This document shows, piece after piece, positions 2,435 to 8,722 of a stretch of 64,000 nt of DNA. This stretch comes from Pseudomonas sp. MH9.2 (lineage in GTDB: Bacteria; Pseudomonadota; Gammaproteobacteria; Pseudomonadales; Pseudomonadaceae). Every line of letters starts with the position of its first letter. The stretch's first letter is position 1. The notes under the pieces were generated by a model, which had not been told where the DNA came from, searched no databases, and worked only from the letters and a program-made list of their open reading frames with translations. The position numbers and the translations under genes were made by a program. The stretch covers positions 2,108,001-2,172,000 of the forward strand of contig NZ_CP133784.1 in assembly GCF_034353875.1 (NCBI RefSeq), written 5' to 3'.

Positions 2435-3064
2435 ATGACCACACTCTCCAAACAGCCGGAAGCGGCGATCTACAACGCGACCATCCCCGCAGGCGAGCCC
2501 TGGCTGAGCGAAGTCAAGGCCGGACAAACCCTGCGCATCCTCGACCTGGAAGGCAATCAAGCAGTCGATACGCTGTTCTACAGCCTGGCCAACCCCCGCG
2601 AACGGTATGACGTGCAGCGTACCTTGCGGCGGCAGAACAGCGTGTACCTGACCACCGGCAGCGTGCTGTATTCCAACCTCGGCAAACCGATGCTGACCAT
2701 CGTCGAAGACACCTGCGGACGCCATGACACCCTCGGCGGCGCTTGCGCGCAGGAGAGCAACACCGTGCGCTACTCTCTGGAAAAACGTCACATGCACAGT
2801 TGCCGCGACAACTACCTGCGCGCCTGTGCCCATGACGGTCGCCTGAGCAAAGGTGACATCGGCCCGAACATCAATTTCTTCATGAACGTGCCGGTCACCG
2901 CAGACGGCGGCCTGACCTTCGAAGATGGCATCTCGGCGCCCGGTAAATACGTCGAACTGCGCGCGGAAATGGACGTGATCGTGCTGATTTCCAACTGCCC
3001 GCAACTGAACAACCCGTGCAACGCCTACAACCCGACACCTGCGCAGTTGCTGATATGGAACTGA
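2435..3064 (+). CDS. DUF1989 protein, urea carboxylase-associated protein 2 (likely carboxyguanidine deiminase subunit)
   Basis: This 209-residue partner of the preceding gene begins 11 bases after its stop, with a GAGGATCG ribosome site. The family's cysteine block is DTCGRHDTLGGAC at about residues 91-103, matching the equivalent segment in the first protein, so the two are paralogues expected to form a heteromer. Established work links such pairs to carboxyguanidine deimination between a guanidine carboxylase and allophanate hydrolase. The DUF1989 assignment is firm; the guanidine role is inferred from operon order and the downstream riboswitch-like hairpins. Confidence 0.88.
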   Translation: MTTLSKQPEAAIYNATIPAGEPWLSEVKAGQTLRILDLEGNQAVDTLFYSLANPRERYDVQRTLRRQNSVYLTTGSVLYSNLGKPMLTIVEDTCGRHDTLGGACAQESNTVRYSLEKRHMHSCRDNYLRACAHDGRLSKGDIGPNINFFMNVPVTADGGLTFEDGISAPGKYVELRAEMDVIVLISNCPQLNNPCNAYNPTPAQLLIWN

Positions 3065-3171
3065 ATCTTTTGAAGCTACGCAGCTGGTTATTCAGCCTGT
3101 GCCAAAGCCGCTCCGGGCAGTGCGTGGCGTCAAAGCGCCAGCCTCCCCTGTAAGAGCACCAGGTTTCGCCA

Positions 3172-3217
3172 TCGGGGACGGCCTCGAGGCACTACGAAAA
3201 CAGCGGGACGGCCCGCT
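3172..3217 (+). promoter_or_regulatory. Candidate guanidine-II (mini-ykkC) riboswitch
   Basis: Two short hairpins with identical ACGG loops lie in the 198-base gap before the carboxylase gene. Hairpin 1 spans 3172-3187 (stem TCGGGG/CCTCGA, one G-T pair, loop 3178-3181). Hairpin 2 spans 3202-3217 (stem AGCGGG/CCCGCT, loop 3208-3211). They are 14 bases apart. Guanidine-II riboswitches are defined by exactly this pair of ACGR-loop hairpins. The ribosome site GGGG (3251-3254) lies downstream, so control of translation is plausible, with ligand exposing the site. Confidence 0.8.
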
Positions 3218-3226
3218 TCCCGGCAA

Positions 3227-3249
3227 GAAACCGATCAGCCATCGGTTTC
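3227..3249 (+). promoter_or_regulatory. Hairpin between riboswitch and carboxylase ribosome site
   Basis: A perfect 9-bp inverted repeat (GAAACCGAT, loop CAGCC, ATCGGTTTC) ends two bases before the GGGG ribosome site and 13 bases before the ATG at 3263. It lies between the two ACGG-loop hairpins and the start codon. It may be part of the expression platform, or simply stabilise the leader. No T-run follows, so it is not an obvious intrinsic terminator. Confidence 0.5.
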
Positions 3250-3262
3250 TGGGGTTTATGCC

Positions 3263-6200
3263 ATGTTCAAGACACTGCTGATCGCCAACCGTGGCGCCAT
3301 TGCCTGCCGCATCCTGCGTACCTTGCGCGCCTTGCAGGTCAAGGGCGTGGCGGTCTATTCCGAAGCCGATGCCGCCAGCCTGCATATTCTTCAAGCCGAT
3401 GAAGCCCATAGCCTGGGTGAAGGTGGCGCAGCCGGGACCTATTTGGCGGTGGATAAAATACTCGCCATCGCCAAAGCCAGCGGCGCCACGGCGATCCATC
3501 CCGGTTACGGCTTCCTCTCCGAAAACGCCGCGTTCGCCCAAGCCTGCGAAGACGCTGGCATCGCCTTCGTCGGCCCGACACCCGACCAGCTTCGGGTGTT
3601 CGGCCTCAAACACACGGCACGCGCACTGGCCAAGCAACACGGCGTGCCGATGCTTGAGGGCACCGAACTGCTCGACAGCCTCGACGACGCCCTCAACGCG
3701 GGCGAACAGATCGGCTACCCGGTGATGCTGAAAAGCACAGCAGGCGGTGGCGGGATCGGCATGCGCGTGTGCCGCAGTGCGCTCGAACTGAGCGAATCGT
3801 TCGACGCGGTGAAACGTCTGGGACAGAACAACTTCAGCGACGCTGGCGTCTTTATCGAGAAGTACATCCAGCGCGCCCGGCACTTGGAAGTACAGGTGTT
3901 CGGCGACGGCCAGGGCGACGTTATCGCCCTCGGTGTGCGTGATTGCTCGGTACAACGGCGCAACCAGAAAGTCCTCGAAGAAACCCCGGCGCCGAACCTG
4001 CCAGACGGCATGGCCGACGAACTGTGTGCGGCAGCGATCAAGCTGGCCAAAGCGGTCAATTACCGCAGCGCCGGGACCGTGGAGTTCGTGTTCGACAGCG
4101 AGGACCAGCGTTTCTATTTCCTCGAAGTGAACACCCGCTTGCAGGTCGAGCACGGGGTCACTGAACAAGTGTGGGGCGTCGATCTGGTCAGCTGGATGGT
4201 CCAGCTGGCAGCGGGTGATCTACCGCCACTCAGTCAGTTGCGCACGGGCTTGCAGGCGAACGGTCATGCGATTCAGGCGCGGCTGTATGCCGAAGACCCG
4301 GGCCGGGATTTCCAGCCCTGCCCCGGCTTGCTGACTGCGGTGAATTTCCCGACCGCCGATGGCAAGACCTTGCGCATCGACACCTGGGTCGAAGCCGGTT
4401 GCGAGATCCCGCCGTTCTTCGACCCCATGATTGCCAAGCTGATCAGTTGGGCGCCAACCCGTGAGCAGGCCAGCGCCGGACTTGCTCAAGCGCTGAGCGA
4501 CAGCCACCTGTATGGCGTGGAAACCAACCGCGATTACCTGCGGCAGATTCTGCTCGACGCGCCCTTTGCCAGTGGCCAGCCATGGACTCGGTGCCTGGAA
4601 GGTCTGGTGTATCGCGCCAACACCTTTGAAGTGCTGAGTGGCGGTACCCAGACCAGCGTGCAGGACTATCCCGGGCGTCTCGGTTACTGGGCGGTCGGTG
4701 TGCCGCCGTCCGGGCCAATGGACAGTCGCGCACTGCGTCTGGGCAACCGCCTGCTGGGCAACGCCGAAGGCTGTGCCGCGCTGGAAATCACCATGAGCGG
4801 CCCGCTGCTGCGCTTCAACACCGACGCCGTGGTTGCCATCACCGGCGCGCCGATTCCGCTGACCCTGGACGGTCAGCCTCAGGCGCTGAATACCGCGTTG
4901 CTGGTACCCGCCGGTTCAACCCTGGCGCTGGGCACCATCGCGGGCGCCGGTGCACGAAGCTACCTCTGTGTGCGCGGCGGGTTGGAGCTGCCGGACTATC
5001 TGGGCAGCAAAAGCACGTTCACCCTGGGTCAATTTGGCGGGCATGGCGGCCGCGCTTTGCGGGCTGGCGACGTGCTGCACATTCCAGCCCTGAGTGACCG
5101 CAGCATCGGTCAGCGCGTACCGGACGACCAGCTTCACGCCTTGCCTGCCGTGCGTCAGATCCGGGTCATTTACGGCCCCCATGGCGCGCCGGAATATTTC
5201 ACCGAGCGCTACATCGAGACCTTCTTCGCCACCCAATGGGAAGTGCATTTCAACTCCAGCCGTACAGGCGTCCGCCTGATTGGTCCCAAGCCGGAATGGG
5301 TCCGCGCCGACGGTGGCGAAGCGGGCTTGCACCCCTCGAACATCCACGACAACCCGTACGCCATCGGCGCCGTGGATTTCACTGGCGACATGCCGGTCAT
5401 CCTTGGCCCGGATGGCCCGAGCCTGGGCGGTTTCGTCTGCCCGGTGACCATCATCGAAGCCGACCTCTGGCAACTGGGGCAACTCAAGGCCGGCGACAAC
5501 GTGCAGTTCCATCCGGTCAGTATCGATGCTGCACGCGCGATCTTCTGCATGAGCGAACGTGCTCACGAGGAAAGCGACGCGGTGCCAGATCTGGCCTCAT
5601 CGCGAATGAGCTCGCTAGCACAAGGGTTAATTTCACCTGTTGTATTGGACATCGGCCAGGACGACACACGGCTGATGGCGCGTCTGTCTGGCGACACTCA
5701 TTTGCTCCTGGAAATCGGCGCACCCGAGCTGGACCTGGTACTGCGCTTTCGCGGTCATGCGCTGATGCAGGCCCTCGAAGCCAAAGCGCTACAGGGCGTG
5801 ATCGACCTGACGCCGGGCATTCGTTCCCTGCAAGTGCATTACCAGCCCGAACAACTGCCGCTTGCGGATTTACTGGATATCGTCGTCGGCGAATGGGACG
5901 CCGTGTGCGCCGCCAAAGACCTGCAAGTGCCGTCGCGAATCGTGCACTTGCCGCTGTCCTGGGATGATCCGGCGTGCCAGTTGGCCATCGAGAAATACAT
6001 GACTACCGTGCGCAAGGACGCCCCGTGGTGCCCAAGCAACCTGGAGTTCATCCGCCGCATCAACGACCTGCCCAACCTCGACCAAGTGCAGCGCACGGTG
6101 TTCGACGCCAGCTACCTGGTGATGGGCCTGGGCGACGTGTACCTCGGCGCGCCTGTCGCCACCCCGCTCGACCCACGGCACCGGCTGGTGACGACCAAGT

Positions 6201-6880
6201 ACAACCCGGCACGGACCTGGACGGCAGAGAACTCGGTCGGCATCGGTGGCGCCTATATGTGCGTGTACGGCATGGAAGGCCCCGGTGGTTATCAGTTTGT
6301 CGGGCGCACGTTGCAGATGTGGAACCGCTACCGCGAAGTCGCGGCGTTCGATGGCAAACCGTGGCTGCTGCGCTTCTTCGATCAGATTCGTTTTTACCCG
6401 GTCAGCGCCGAAGAGCTGCTGCGCATCCGCCGCGATTTTCCCTTGGGCCGGTACCCGCTAAGCATCGAGCACAGCACCTTGAACCTGGCTGACTATCAGG
6501 CTTTTCTCGCCCGTGAAGCCGAGGGTATCGCCGCATTTCGTGCTCAGCAGCAAGGGGCCTTCAACGCCGAACGCGAACGTTGGATCGCCAGCGGTCAGGC
6601 ACATTTTGAAAGCGACGAAGCCGCTATCCCAGCCACCGACGACGCCCCTCTTGACGCAGGCCAGCACGGCATCGACAGCCATATCGCCGGCAACCTGTGG
6701 CAGGTGCAGGTCGAGGTCGGCCATCGGGTTGAAGTGGGCGATGTGCTGGTGATTCTGGAGTCGATGAAGATGGAAATTCCGCTACTGGCAACCCTGGCTG
6801 GCACCGTGCTTGAAGTAAGGGTGCAGCCCGGCTCGGCGGTGCGCGCCGGGCAGCGGGTCGTGGTGCTTGAAGCTGACTGA
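3263..6880 (+). CDS. Biotin-dependent urea/guanidine carboxylase
   Basis: This 1,205-residue enzyme carboxylates urea or, by context, guanidine, using ATP and bicarbonate. Residues 1 to about 450 are a biotin carboxylase with an ATP-grasp core. A KipA-like carboxyltransferase half (CT_A_B, AHS2) starts near 454. The KipI-like half (CT_C_D, AHS1) runs from about 890 to 1,090. A biotinyl domain is at the C-terminus, with the biotin lysine K1169 in ESMKMEI. Length matches bacterial urea carboxylases without the fused amidase. The CT linker near residues 777-789 contains an in-frame REP-like sequence. ATG 3263 follows GGGG. A guanidine-II riboswitch candidate upstream favours guanidine as substrate. 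Confidence 0.93.
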   Translation: MFKTLLIANRGAIACRILRTLRALQVKGVAVYSEADAASLHILQADEAHSLGEGGAAGTYLAVDKILAIAKASGATAIHPGYGFLSENAAFAQACEDAGIAFVGPTPDQLRVFGLKHTARALAKQHGVPMLEGTELLDSLDDALNAGEQIGYPVMLKSTAGGGGIGMRVCRSALELSESFDAVKRLGQNNFSDAGVFIEKYIQRARHLEVQVFGDGQGDVIALGVRDCSVQRRNQKVLEETPAPNLPDGMADELCAAAIKLAKAVNYRSAGTVEFVFDSEDQRFYFLEVNTRLQVEHGVTEQVWGVDLVSWMVQLAAGDLPPLSQLRTGLQANGHAIQARLYAEDPGRDFQPCPGLLTAVNFPTADGKTLRIDTWVEAGCEIPPFFDPMIAKLISWAPTREQASAGLAQALSDSHLYGVETNRDYLRQILLDAPFASGQPWTRCLEGLVYRANTFEVLSGGTQTSVQDYPGRLGYWAVGVPPSGPMDSRALRLGNRLLGNAEGCAALEITMSGPLLRFNTDAVVAITGAPIPLTLDGQPQALNTALLVPAGSTLALGTIAGAGARSYLCVRGGLELPDYLGSKSTFTLGQFGGHGGRALRAGDVLHIPALSDRSIGQRVPDDQLHALPAVRQIRVIYGPHGAPEYFTERYIETFFATQWEVHFNSSRTGVRLIGPKPEWVRADGGEAGLHPSNIHDNPYAIGAVDFTGDMPVILGPDGPSLGGFVCPVTIIEADLWQLGQLKAGDNVQFHPVSIDAARAIFCMSERAHEESDAVPDLASSRMSSLAQGLISPVVLDIGQDDTRLMARLSGDTHLLLEIGAPELDLVLRFRGHALMQALEAKALQGVIDLTPGIRSLQVHYQPEQLPLADLLDIVVGEWDAVCAAKDLQVPSRIVHLPLSWDDPACQLAIEKYMTTVRKDAPWCPSNLEFIRRINDLPNLDQVQRTVFDASYLVMGLGDVYLGAPVATPLDPRHRLVTTKYNPARTWTAENSVGIGGAYMCVYGMEGPGGYQFVGRTLQMWNRYREVAAFDGKPWLLRFFDQIRFYPVSAEELLRIRRDFPLGRYPLSIEHSTLNLADYQAFLAREAEGIAAFRAQQQGAFNAERERWIASGQAHFESDEAAIPATDDAPLDAGQHGIDSHIAGNLWQVQVEVGHRVEVGDVLVILESMKMEIPLLATLAGTVLEVRVQPGSAVRAGQRVVVLEAD
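5593..5625 (+). repeat. REP-like palindrome inside the carboxylase coding sequence
   Basis: The segment has the shape of the common P. fluorescens REP element: CTCATCGCGA, then GAGCTCGCT and a CACAAGG tail. It lies in frame in the carboxylase gene, encoding ASSRMSSLAQG at about residues 777-788, in the linker between the carboxyltransferase halves. REP elements are normally intergenic. Identification rests on recall of the consensus; two or three positions differ from the usual form. Confidence 0.6.
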
Positions 6881-6910: not shown

Positions 6911-8722
6911 ATGAGCCATGACCTGCATTCAAGCGACCTGCGCCTCGACAGCGTTCGCGCCGCGTATCAAGACGGTCGCCAGACACCTCGGCAACTGATC
7001 CTCGCCCTGCGCGAAAAAGCCGCTGCGTTGAACCCGGACTATCACCTGTTCATCCATCTGCTGAGTGCTACCGAGCTGGAACCCTATCTGGCCGCGCTGG
7101 AAAACAGCGACCTCAACGACCTGCCGCTGTATGGCGTGCCGTTCGCGATCAAAGACAACATCGACCTGGCCGGCATCCCCACGACCGCCGCCTGCCCGGC
7201 ATTCACCTATACCCCGGAGCGCTCGGCGACCATCGTCGAGCAGTTGATCGGCCTCGGCGCAATTCCGTTGGGCAAAACCAACCTCGACCAGTTTGCCACC
7301 GGGCTGAATGGCAGCCGCTCCCCCTATGGGGCCTGCCCGAACAGTGTGCTGGCCGAGTACCCGTCAGGCGGCTCCAGCGCAGGATCATCGTTGGCCGTGG
7401 CGCTCGGCGTCGCCAGCTTCGCCCTCGGCACCGACACCGCCGGGTCCGGCCGAGTGCCCGCAGCACTGAACAATCTGGTGGGACTCAAGGCCAGTAAGGG
7501 CCTGATCTCCACTGCCGGGGTGGTGCCCGCCTGCCGCACCCTTGATTGCGTGACCACTTTCACCGCCACCGCGCGCGAAGCCAGCCAGTTGCTCGGTCTG
7601 GTAGCCCGACTCGATTCGCGTGACGAATACAGCCGCAGCAACCCGCTGTGGAACGACGCCTCTGCGTTCGGTGCGCCCCGCCCGTTTCGTTTCGGCGTAC
7701 CCCGTGCGCAGGACCTGGCGTTCTTCGGCTGCGAGCAAGGGCCCCTGCTGTTCGGCGATGCCATCGACCGTCTGACCGCGATGGGCGGCGAAGCAGTGAC
7801 GCTGGACCTGTCACCCTTCCTCGAAGCTGCGCGCCTGCTGTATGACGGCCCATGGGTTGCCGAACGCTACAGCGTTGCGGGCGAACTGATGGAGCACAAC
7901 CCAGAAGCGGTATTGCCGGTGATCCGCGCAGTACTGTCGAAAGCACCGGCCGTGACCGGCGTGCAAACGTTCCGTGCGCACTACCGCCTGCAAGCACTCA
8001 AAGCCCTGTGCGACAAAGCCCTTGAAGGTCTCGACTGCGTAGTGACGCCCTCCATCGGTCGCCCGGTGACCCTCGCCGAACTGGAGGCTGAACCGGTGCT
8101 GCGCAACTCGGAATTGGGTTACTACACCAATTTCATGAACCTGCTGGACTACGCCGCCGTCGCCGTACCGAGTGCCTTCATGGACAACGGCCTGCCGTGG
8201 GGCGTGACCCTGTTCGGTCGGGTCTTCACTGATCACTATCTGCTCAGCCTGGCCGACGCCCTGCAACGCCATACCGGCCTGCCGGTGATCGGCGGCCACG
8301 CACCCAACCTGTCAGCACCGACCACTGTCGCCCGCAACGACATGGCACGCTTAGTGGTGTGCGGCGCGCACCTGGATGGCCTGGCGCTGAACTGGCAACT
8401 CAAGCAGCGCGGTGGCCGCTTGCTGGAGGTCACCCAAAGCTCGGCGGATTACCAGCTCTACGCATTGGCCGGTGGACCACCGTTTCGGCCCGGCATGCTG
8501 CGGGTCGCGCAAGGCGGCGTAGCGATTGCCGTGGAAGTCTGGGAACTGCCAAGCCGCGAACTGGGGTCATTCCTCTCCGGCATTCCGGCACCCTTGGGCC
8601 TGGGCAAGGTTCAGTTGGCCGACGGACGCTGGGAAAGCGGTTTCATCTGCGAACCTTATGGCCTGGAGGGCGCGACAGATATCAGCCACCTAGGCGGATG
8701 GCGCGCCTATTTGAGTGCCTGA
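6911..8722 (+). CDS. atzF: Allophanate hydrolase
   Basis: This 603-residue amidase-signature enzyme splits allophanate into ammonia and carbon dioxide, the last step of the pathway. The amidase domain fills residues 1 to about 440, with the Ser-cisSer-Lys triad visible: K81 in FAIKDN, S155 in GGSSAGSS and S179 in TAGSGR, 24 residues apart as expected. A C-terminal domain from about 470 to 600 is the allophanate-hydrolase-specific region. It begins 30 bases after the carboxylase stop, on the same strand, and is separate rather than fused as in yeast urea amidolyase. A strong palindrome follows at 8752. Confidence 0.94.
   Translation: MSHDLHSSDLRLDSVRAAYQDGRQTPRQLILALREKAAALNPDYHLFIHLLSATELEPYLAALENSDLNDLPLYGVPFAIKDNIDLAGIPTTAACPAFTYTPERSATIVEQLIGLGAIPLGKTNLDQFATGLNGSRSPYGACPNSVLAEYPSGGSSAGSSLAVALGVASFALGTDTAGSGRVPAALNNLVGLKASKGLISTAGVVPACRTLDCVTTFTATAREASQLLGLVARLDSRDEYSRSNPLWNDASAFGAPRPFRFGVPRAQDLAFFGCEQGPLLFGDAIDRLTAMGGEAVTLDLSPFLEAARLLYDGPWVAERYSVAGELMEHNPEAVLPVIRAVLSKAPAVTGVQTFRAHYRLQALKALCDKALEGLDCVVTPSIGRPVTLAELEAEPVLRNSELGYYTNFMNLLDYAAVAVPSAFMDNGLPWGVTLFGRVFTDHYLLSLADALQRHTGLPVIGGHAPNLSAPTTVARNDMARLVVCGAHLDGLALNWQLKQRGGRLLEVTQSSADYQLYALAGGPPFRPGMLRVAQGGVAIAVEVWELPSRELGSFLSGIPAPLGLGKVQLADGRWESGFICEPYGLEGATDISHLGGWRAYLSA

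Follow-up and report, generated by a model that had tools for sequence, protein, structure and literature searches.

A Guanidine-II riboswitch aptamer at positions 3170–3216 of a 64,000-nucleotide stretch of the Pseudomonas sp. MH9.2 genome (the window hereafter, G000:C1:2108001-2172000 of 5.58 Mb) very probably serves a guanidine-assimilation operon as its second guanidine sensor, located internally and gating the translation of the carboxylase gene. This reading is based on the aptamer, its conserved place, a hairpin with covariation at the ribosome site (P3), a riboswitch at the head of the operon, a conserved promoter-like motif and an Asp residue in the carboxylase. The operon would encode a substrate-binding protein, a permease, an ATPase, two carboxyguanidine deiminase subunits, a guanidine carboxylase and an allophanate hydrolase. 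Transcription would start at a sigma-54-like promoter, of the nitrogen-starvation type, and then pass a Guanidine-I riboswitch at the head, and Guanidine-II, inside the mRNA, would gate translation of the carboxylase and, via the carboxylase, of the hydrolase. In the absence of guanidine, P3 would hold the Shine-Dalgarno sequence of the carboxylase against a CCC placed just after P2, the second hairpin of the aptamer. Guanidine would dock the loops of the P1 and P2 hairpins, and initiation would be favoured.

The aptamer was detected with Rfam cmscan as a match to RF01068 (Guanidine-II, or mini-ykkC), at 40.7 bits for a gathering cut-off of 32. The E value was 1.2e-4 for the 64-kb window against 4227 Rfam families, 9e-7 for the segment 2900–3400 alone, and 2.3e-6 for this single family against the whole genome. 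The initial annotation had recognized the mini-ykkC signature in two ACGG-loop hairpins and had proposed a covariance-model search as a check, which the above match now provides. It had also placed the element at 3172–3217 with a spacing of 14 bases; the element stands, whereas the Rfam span is displaced by one or two bases and the spacing between the two Rfam stems is 13 nt. In the Rfam alignment, P1 (3170–3189, loop 3178–3181) has one A-G mismatch close to its base, and P2 (3202–3217) has its loop at 3208–3211; like all other window features described here, they are on the forward strand. A short linker between two ACGR loops, as found here, is characteristic of Guanidine-II. Among 27 aligned sequences, own included, 91% of P1 cells were paired, with changes on both sides in five of the seven pairs, and 100% of P2 cells were paired, four of the six pairs being invariant. 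The covariation score of the whole structure was reached by none of 500 shuffles of these 27 sequences. Judged by its sequence, the 3170–3216 element is a genuine Guanidine-II riboswitch, an ordinary and well-conserved member of the family, which is expected to bind guanidine.

The element begins 105 nt past the stop of UAAP2 (3064) and ends 46 nt ahead of the carboxylase ATG (3263), that is, inside the operon and directly 5' of the carboxylase gene, as initially described. Upstream of it, the window contains the 3' end of the first operon gene (1–69, from the list of open reading frames), the ABC transporter permease (97–912, PF00528, 70.4 bits) and ATPase (909–1673, PF00005, 125.6 bits), and two DUF1989 genes, UAAP1 (1686–2423, TIGR03425, 329.8 bits, cut-off 205.95) and UAAP2 (2435–3064, TIGR03424, 341.8 bits, cut-off 284.7). 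The start of the first gene lies 1011 bases ahead of the window, the whole gene occupying positions 6990–8069 of the upstream stretch L003, in which window position 1 is L003:8001. From its place, we take it to encode the substrate-binding protein of the transporter. Downstream of the element are the carboxylase (3263–6880), which is annotated as urea carboxylase (TIGR02712, 1881.7 bits), and the allophanate hydrolase (6911–8722, TIGR02713, 785.6 bits). The function reported in PMC11410670 for UAAP2 is that of a carboxyguanidine deiminase subunit, UAAP1 being the other one.

According to the same source, an Asp at the position of residue 1330 of the Kluyveromyces lactis enzyme separates guanidine from urea carboxylases. 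Asp705 of the window carboxylase aligns with Asn1330 of the K. lactis urea amidolyase (5i8i). Alignment of 37 full-length copies revealed Asp at this position in all 30 riboswitch-linked copies, which come from 30 of the 54 genomes with UAAP2 described below, and Asn in all seven unlinked ones. It was the sole Asp/Asn column among the 131 columns that separated the two groups. The seven unlinked, Asn-type carboxylases each adjoin an allophanate hydrolase. By the Asp at its specificity position, the window carboxylase is assigned to the guanidine type, and the gene next downstream of the aptamer is then a guanidine-related one, as expected for Guanidine-II.

The order of genes from the first one to the carboxylase was as in the window for 24 of the 30 full loci. 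An extra substrate-binding-type gene was present in front in four others, and between the ATPase and UAAP1 genes in two. In 11 of the 30 full loci (L077, L078, L081–L088 and L099), no allophanate hydrolase match was found after the carboxylase; in five of the 11 genomes concerned, another carboxylase, of the Asn type, is present at a different site together with a hydrolase.

At the head of the operon, roughly 1.1 kb before the start of the window, a Guanidine-I riboswitch was found (RF00442, L003:6825-6926, 95.1 bits, cut-off 63). The two guanidine sensors are separated by approximately 4.2 kb, and the arrangement, with Guanidine-I at the head and with Guanidine-II separating cgdB (UAAP2) from the carboxylase gene, is that of a two-riboswitch carboxylase operon. 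With Guanidine-I at the head, both halves of the operon would be controlled by guanidine, and the internal element would therefore act on carboxylase and hydrolase as a second gate. The proposal that guanidine regulates these two genes apart from those for the transporter and the DUF1989 proteins is not supported as worded, since the head riboswitch was present in 54 out of 54 genomes. Eight T follow the Guanidine-I aptamer of the window strain, and no + strand intrinsic terminator was listed there by the scan. Runs of at least five T were found after the aptamer in only six of 38 leaders (versus 280 of 6000 background segments of 120 nt), so that intrinsic termination is unlikely as the general mode of the head switch. 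Some clusters contain several Guanidine-I copies, two in four genomes (L077, L078, L081, L083) and three in two (L082, L085). The same six loci have a second, distant substrate-binding-type gene (50–52% identity). Two loci without UAAP2 match, L091 (G058) and L092 (G087), have Guanidine-I beside a hydrolase only, or beside pieces of carboxylase and hydrolase, and are apparent operon remnants.

Conservation was examined in 99 genomes of the genus, own included. UAAP2 was present in 54 at the threshold used, Guanidine-I in 56 and Guanidine-II in 94. All 54 UAAP2 genes, the window one among them, had a Guanidine-I upstream (1995–3761 nt to the nearest), as well as a Guanidine-II on the same strand, 9–306 nt past the end of the UAAP2 match, with a carboxylase start next after it. 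Such a constant place indicates that the window element is not due to chance. Throughout the genus, guanidine-carboxylase operons are as a rule controlled by two classes of guanidine riboswitch (54/54 examined). At other places, 86 further Guanidine-II matches were found in 81 genomes; 23 of these loci were examined, and 22 were located ahead of a gene that, from its place, we presume to be sugE-like, the last one not being parsed. Guanidine-II was present in 240 of the 249 genomes of a larger draw.

Among the best 80 of 589 UAAP2 relatives in named genomes, the first 32 were all from Pseudomonas (87–93% identity), and the internal aptamer was found in 74 of the 80 loci; the other six include L202, whose contig ends nearby. 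In a wider survey of 151 genomes, counted by eye, 13 others had a carboxylase match, two of them partial. Guanidine-II was present within 75 nt before the carboxylase in eight of the 13 (one at 25.3 bits, below cut-off), and four of these eight also had Guanidine-I upstream on the same contig. Of the rest, four had Guanidine-I upstream and no Guanidine-II directly before the carboxylase, and one had neither.

Between the aptamer and the carboxylase gene, the region of the ribosome site was analysed in the 54 sequences, which were sorted by expression platform into 27 long (own included), 24 short, one minimal and two with an insert. The Shine-Dalgarno sequence, identified from its complementarity to the 16S rRNA, is GGGG at 3251–3254, 8 nt before the ATG. 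RNAalifold predicted, in both the long and the short alignments, P1, P2 and a further CCC-GGG helix, whose GGG is the Shine-Dalgarno sequence in the window and in its long-type relatives. In the window, the corresponding hairpin, P3 (3219–3254), is supported by RNAalifold, pair counts and the minimum free energy fold, and pairs CCC 3219–3221 with GGG 3252–3254. Its upper helix (3227–3235/3241–3249) is the further hairpin that had been placed at 3227–3249; it is present at the top of P3, with nine pairs, or ten with 3226–3250. P3 is part of the minimum free energy structure of the window sequence, and P1, P2 and P3 are predicted to coexist.

For the long type, the base of P3 was paired in 98.8% of cells and hardly varied, and the upper helix was paired in 75.5% of cells, with changes on both sides in seven of eight pairs. 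Double-change cells numbered 25, versus 9.6 (sd 2.3) in shuffled alignments, none of 500 reaching 25. The covariation score was 0.306 versus 0.186 (0/500), and the true register was better than all slides. Two of the five measures, pairs with changes on both sides (110/500) and pair types (106/500), were not above shuffles, and the shuffles ignore the relatedness of the sequences. The loop-proximal pairs were poorly kept, one of them being unpaired in 19 of 27 sequences. P3 probably exists as a helix in the RNA and, in the predicted fold, sequesters the ribosome site; the support is good though not overwhelming. In 48 of the 54 carboxylase-linked copies, P2 is followed by a CCC within 10 nt. 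In L082 and L085 (G078 and G063), an insert lengthens the distance from the P2 motif to the carboxylase ATG to 169 nt, with a strong predicted fold. P3 was also considered as an intrinsic terminator, and this was rejected, none being found on the + strand at 2850–3320.

In the published model, as it is given in the portion of PMC9094411 compared here, Guanidine-II is a translational ON switch with its anti-Shine-Dalgarno in the P1–P2 linker. An ON switch would be expected in the window too; its linker (3190–3201) contains no UCC, CCU or CCC, and the CCC stands after P2. The initial annotation had suggested that the third hairpin may form the expression switch. P3 does pair the Shine-Dalgarno sequence, but forcing P1 and P2 to form changed the predicted accessibility of this sequence by no more than 0.1 in each of the 54 folded constructs, the mean unpaired value being 0.23 in both conditions. 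On this result, a competition between P2 and Shine-Dalgarno pairing was rejected. As the predicted accessibility is unchanged, the coupling between aptamer and ribosome site is not explained by secondary structure.

Other pairing tests gave no signal. Sequestration of the Shine-Dalgarno sequence was not above that in composition-matched shuffles of the upstream part (0/51 at rank 5 or lower of 100; the two insert platforms and the minimal one were left out of the 54). Pairing between linker and Shine-Dalgarno region was not above permutation, with p = 0.99 for carboxylase-linked and p = 0.75 for sugE-linked copies, nor was pairing between the post-P2 segment and the Shine-Dalgarno sequence (p = 1.0 for the long and 0.21 for the short type); in these permutations the two insert platforms were left out and identical pairs were collapsed, and their power is low because Shine-Dalgarno and anti-Shine-Dalgarno sequences hardly vary.

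We tentatively propose, as a reading that is still rather doubtful, that pseudomonads have, before their carboxylase genes, a mechanistic subtype of Guanidine-II, in which the anti-Shine-Dalgarno has moved from the linker to P3, and P3 would be opened upon loop docking by geometry or tertiary contact. With the sigma-54 promoter and Guanidine-I added, this reading includes a gate in three steps: nitrogen need, then guanidine for transcription, then guanidine or methylguanidine for translation. If P3 switches in this way, the system would test how loop docking alone, without linker competition, frees a ribosome site. The genus-wide control by two classes makes laboratory pseudomonads convenient for studying why a single mRNA reads the same ligand twice.

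A lesser, though real, possibility is that transcription or mRNA decay is the main route of control: an excluded ribosome would expose an untranslated stretch to Rho or to nucleases, with polarity as the outcome. In the window, 198 nt (3065–3262) are untranslated, and mRNA level and translation can be linked (PMC12508155, in the part considered). Furthermore, 14 Burkholderiaceae-type loci that lack P3 and, by eye, a G-rich Shine-Dalgarno sequence imply that a pure Shine-Dalgarno mechanism is not general. Against this route, there is no + strand intrinsic terminator at 2850–3320, and the gap from stop codon to P1 is 33 nt or less in seven of the 54 loci. Gating of carboxylase translation itself is preferred here.

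The start of the transcript was analysed with a sigma-54-like pattern of the −24/−12 type (TGGCAY-N5-YNGC); sigma-54 promoters are linked to nitrogen starvation through NtrC. A site with this pattern is present at L003:6761-6775, 1.24 kb upstream of the window. In the 30 full loci (L065–L088 and L094–L099), each of the 38 leaders contained the pattern upstream of its Guanidine-I aptamer, at a distance of 250 nt or less, 36 times at −120 to −50. Shuffles gave 0.6 of 38 on average and three at most, and the opposite strand gave two of 38. As the pattern was defined once the sites had been seen and the leaders share descent, these counts reflect conservation and are not a proof of function. The conserved sigma-54-like site suggests a nitrogen-starvation control of the whole operon. 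A literature search gave no paper combining "guanidine riboswitch" and "NtrC".

Were there a promoter within the operon, Guanidine-II would be the leader of a separate carboxylase-hydrolase transcript, and not truly internal. Room for it exists in the 105 nt gap and the upstream coding sequence, and relatives often have gaps of about 200 nt. However, no sigma-70-like site was found at 2850–3320, the 400 nt preceding the internal element contained no sigma-54-like site in any of the 54 loci, and seven of the 54 leave about 33 nt at most (0–33) after the UAAP2 stop. An internal promoter is thus unlikely. We infer a single transcript under both switches, no internal promoter-like site of the two types scanned having been found.

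A long-range switch was also considered, in which, without ligand (OFF), the 3' strand of P1 would pair with bases ahead of the ATG, and would be recovered by the aptamer upon guanidine binding. The minimum free energy fold of 3170–3265 does pair GGCA with UGCC ahead of the ATG, and a repeat of GCCATCGG, read by eye at 3168–3175 and 3238–3245, might be a further pairing partner. This complementarity was not above that of permuted partners (mean 8.63 versus 8.32, p = 0.15, 52 of the 54 sequences), which makes such a switch very improbable. Finally, the idea that the element is a chance or decayed look-alike of Guanidine-II, which its score below the highest of the family and its P1 mismatch could evoke, is hardly tenable given that place and loops are kept in 54/54 genomes and that no shuffle out of 500 matched the covariation of the structure.

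The Guanidine-II upstream of E. coli sugE/gdx shares with the window element the aptamer of two ACGR hairpins, but there it heads a detoxification gene. The window strain itself has a sugE-like copy, at G000:C1:1508038-1508091 (31.9 bits, just under the cut-off). A linker UCC, CCU or CCC was present in 17 of the 22 parsed sugE-linked copies (out of 23 loci), versus 19 of the 54 carboxylase-linked ones. In contrast, the CCC within 10 nt after P2, present in 48 of the 54 carboxylase-linked copies, was found in only one of the 22. The two uses of the aptamer in the genus thus tend to differ in their platform. Overlapping weak matches in G010 were checked by reading the sequence (L089); a three-hairpin Guanidine-II was rejected in favour of two hairpins with a long linker.

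Outside the genus, the platform is different. For the named genomes, loci with a CCC or CCU within 10 nt after P2 were 45 of 54 in Pseudomonas, versus one of 20 among non-Pseudomonas loci with aptamer. Because of this rarity, P3 is mostly a pseudomonad feature and not a general part of the switch, the mechanism of which probably differs elsewhere. Three enterobacterial loci, from Brenneria, Pectobacterium and Leclercia, have the aptamer, but no such CCC or CCU. In 14 loci of Burkholderia, Paraburkholderia, Caballeronia and Trinickia (L161–L166, L168, L169, L175, L177, L180, L181, L183 and L184), the carboxylase is preceded by an internal Guanidine-II, yet P2 is not followed by CCC or CCU, and inspection by eye revealed no G-rich Shine-Dalgarno sequence ahead of the ATG.

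A survey of tandem riboswitches, in its available part, contains no tandem of guanidine classes with others (PMC9481103); with sensors approximately 4.2 kb apart, the present operon is not a tandem in the sense used there. In the sections of the literature compared, no sigma-54-like site before Guanidine-I leaders was met, nor an anti-Shine-Dalgarno located past P2. The closest described system is the operon of the halophile Vreelandella boliviensis, in which, according to the portion of PMC12508155 considered, Gd-I occupies the 5'-UTR and Gd-II separates cgdB from gca. Both classes, and the position of each relative to the genes, are those of the present operon. In-line probing showed a response of either RNA to guanidine, with apparent KD of 44 µM and 93 µM for guanidine, and the second sensor, Gd-II, also took methylguanidine. 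That operon also holds mgdH and mgdL, for methylguanidine demethylation, whereas the seven genes here are otherwise accounted for, and the P3-type platform found here is not part of the V. boliviensis description in that portion. Likewise, for the enterobacteria Raoultella terrigena, Erwinia rhapontici and Klebsiella michiganensis, which belong to a different family, the part of PMC12186494 compared describes transporter and deiminase genes under Guanidine-I, with carboxylase and hydrolase genes directly downstream under Guanidine-II. The two-sensor layout is therefore already published in other bacteria, and the window operon is a further instance of it.
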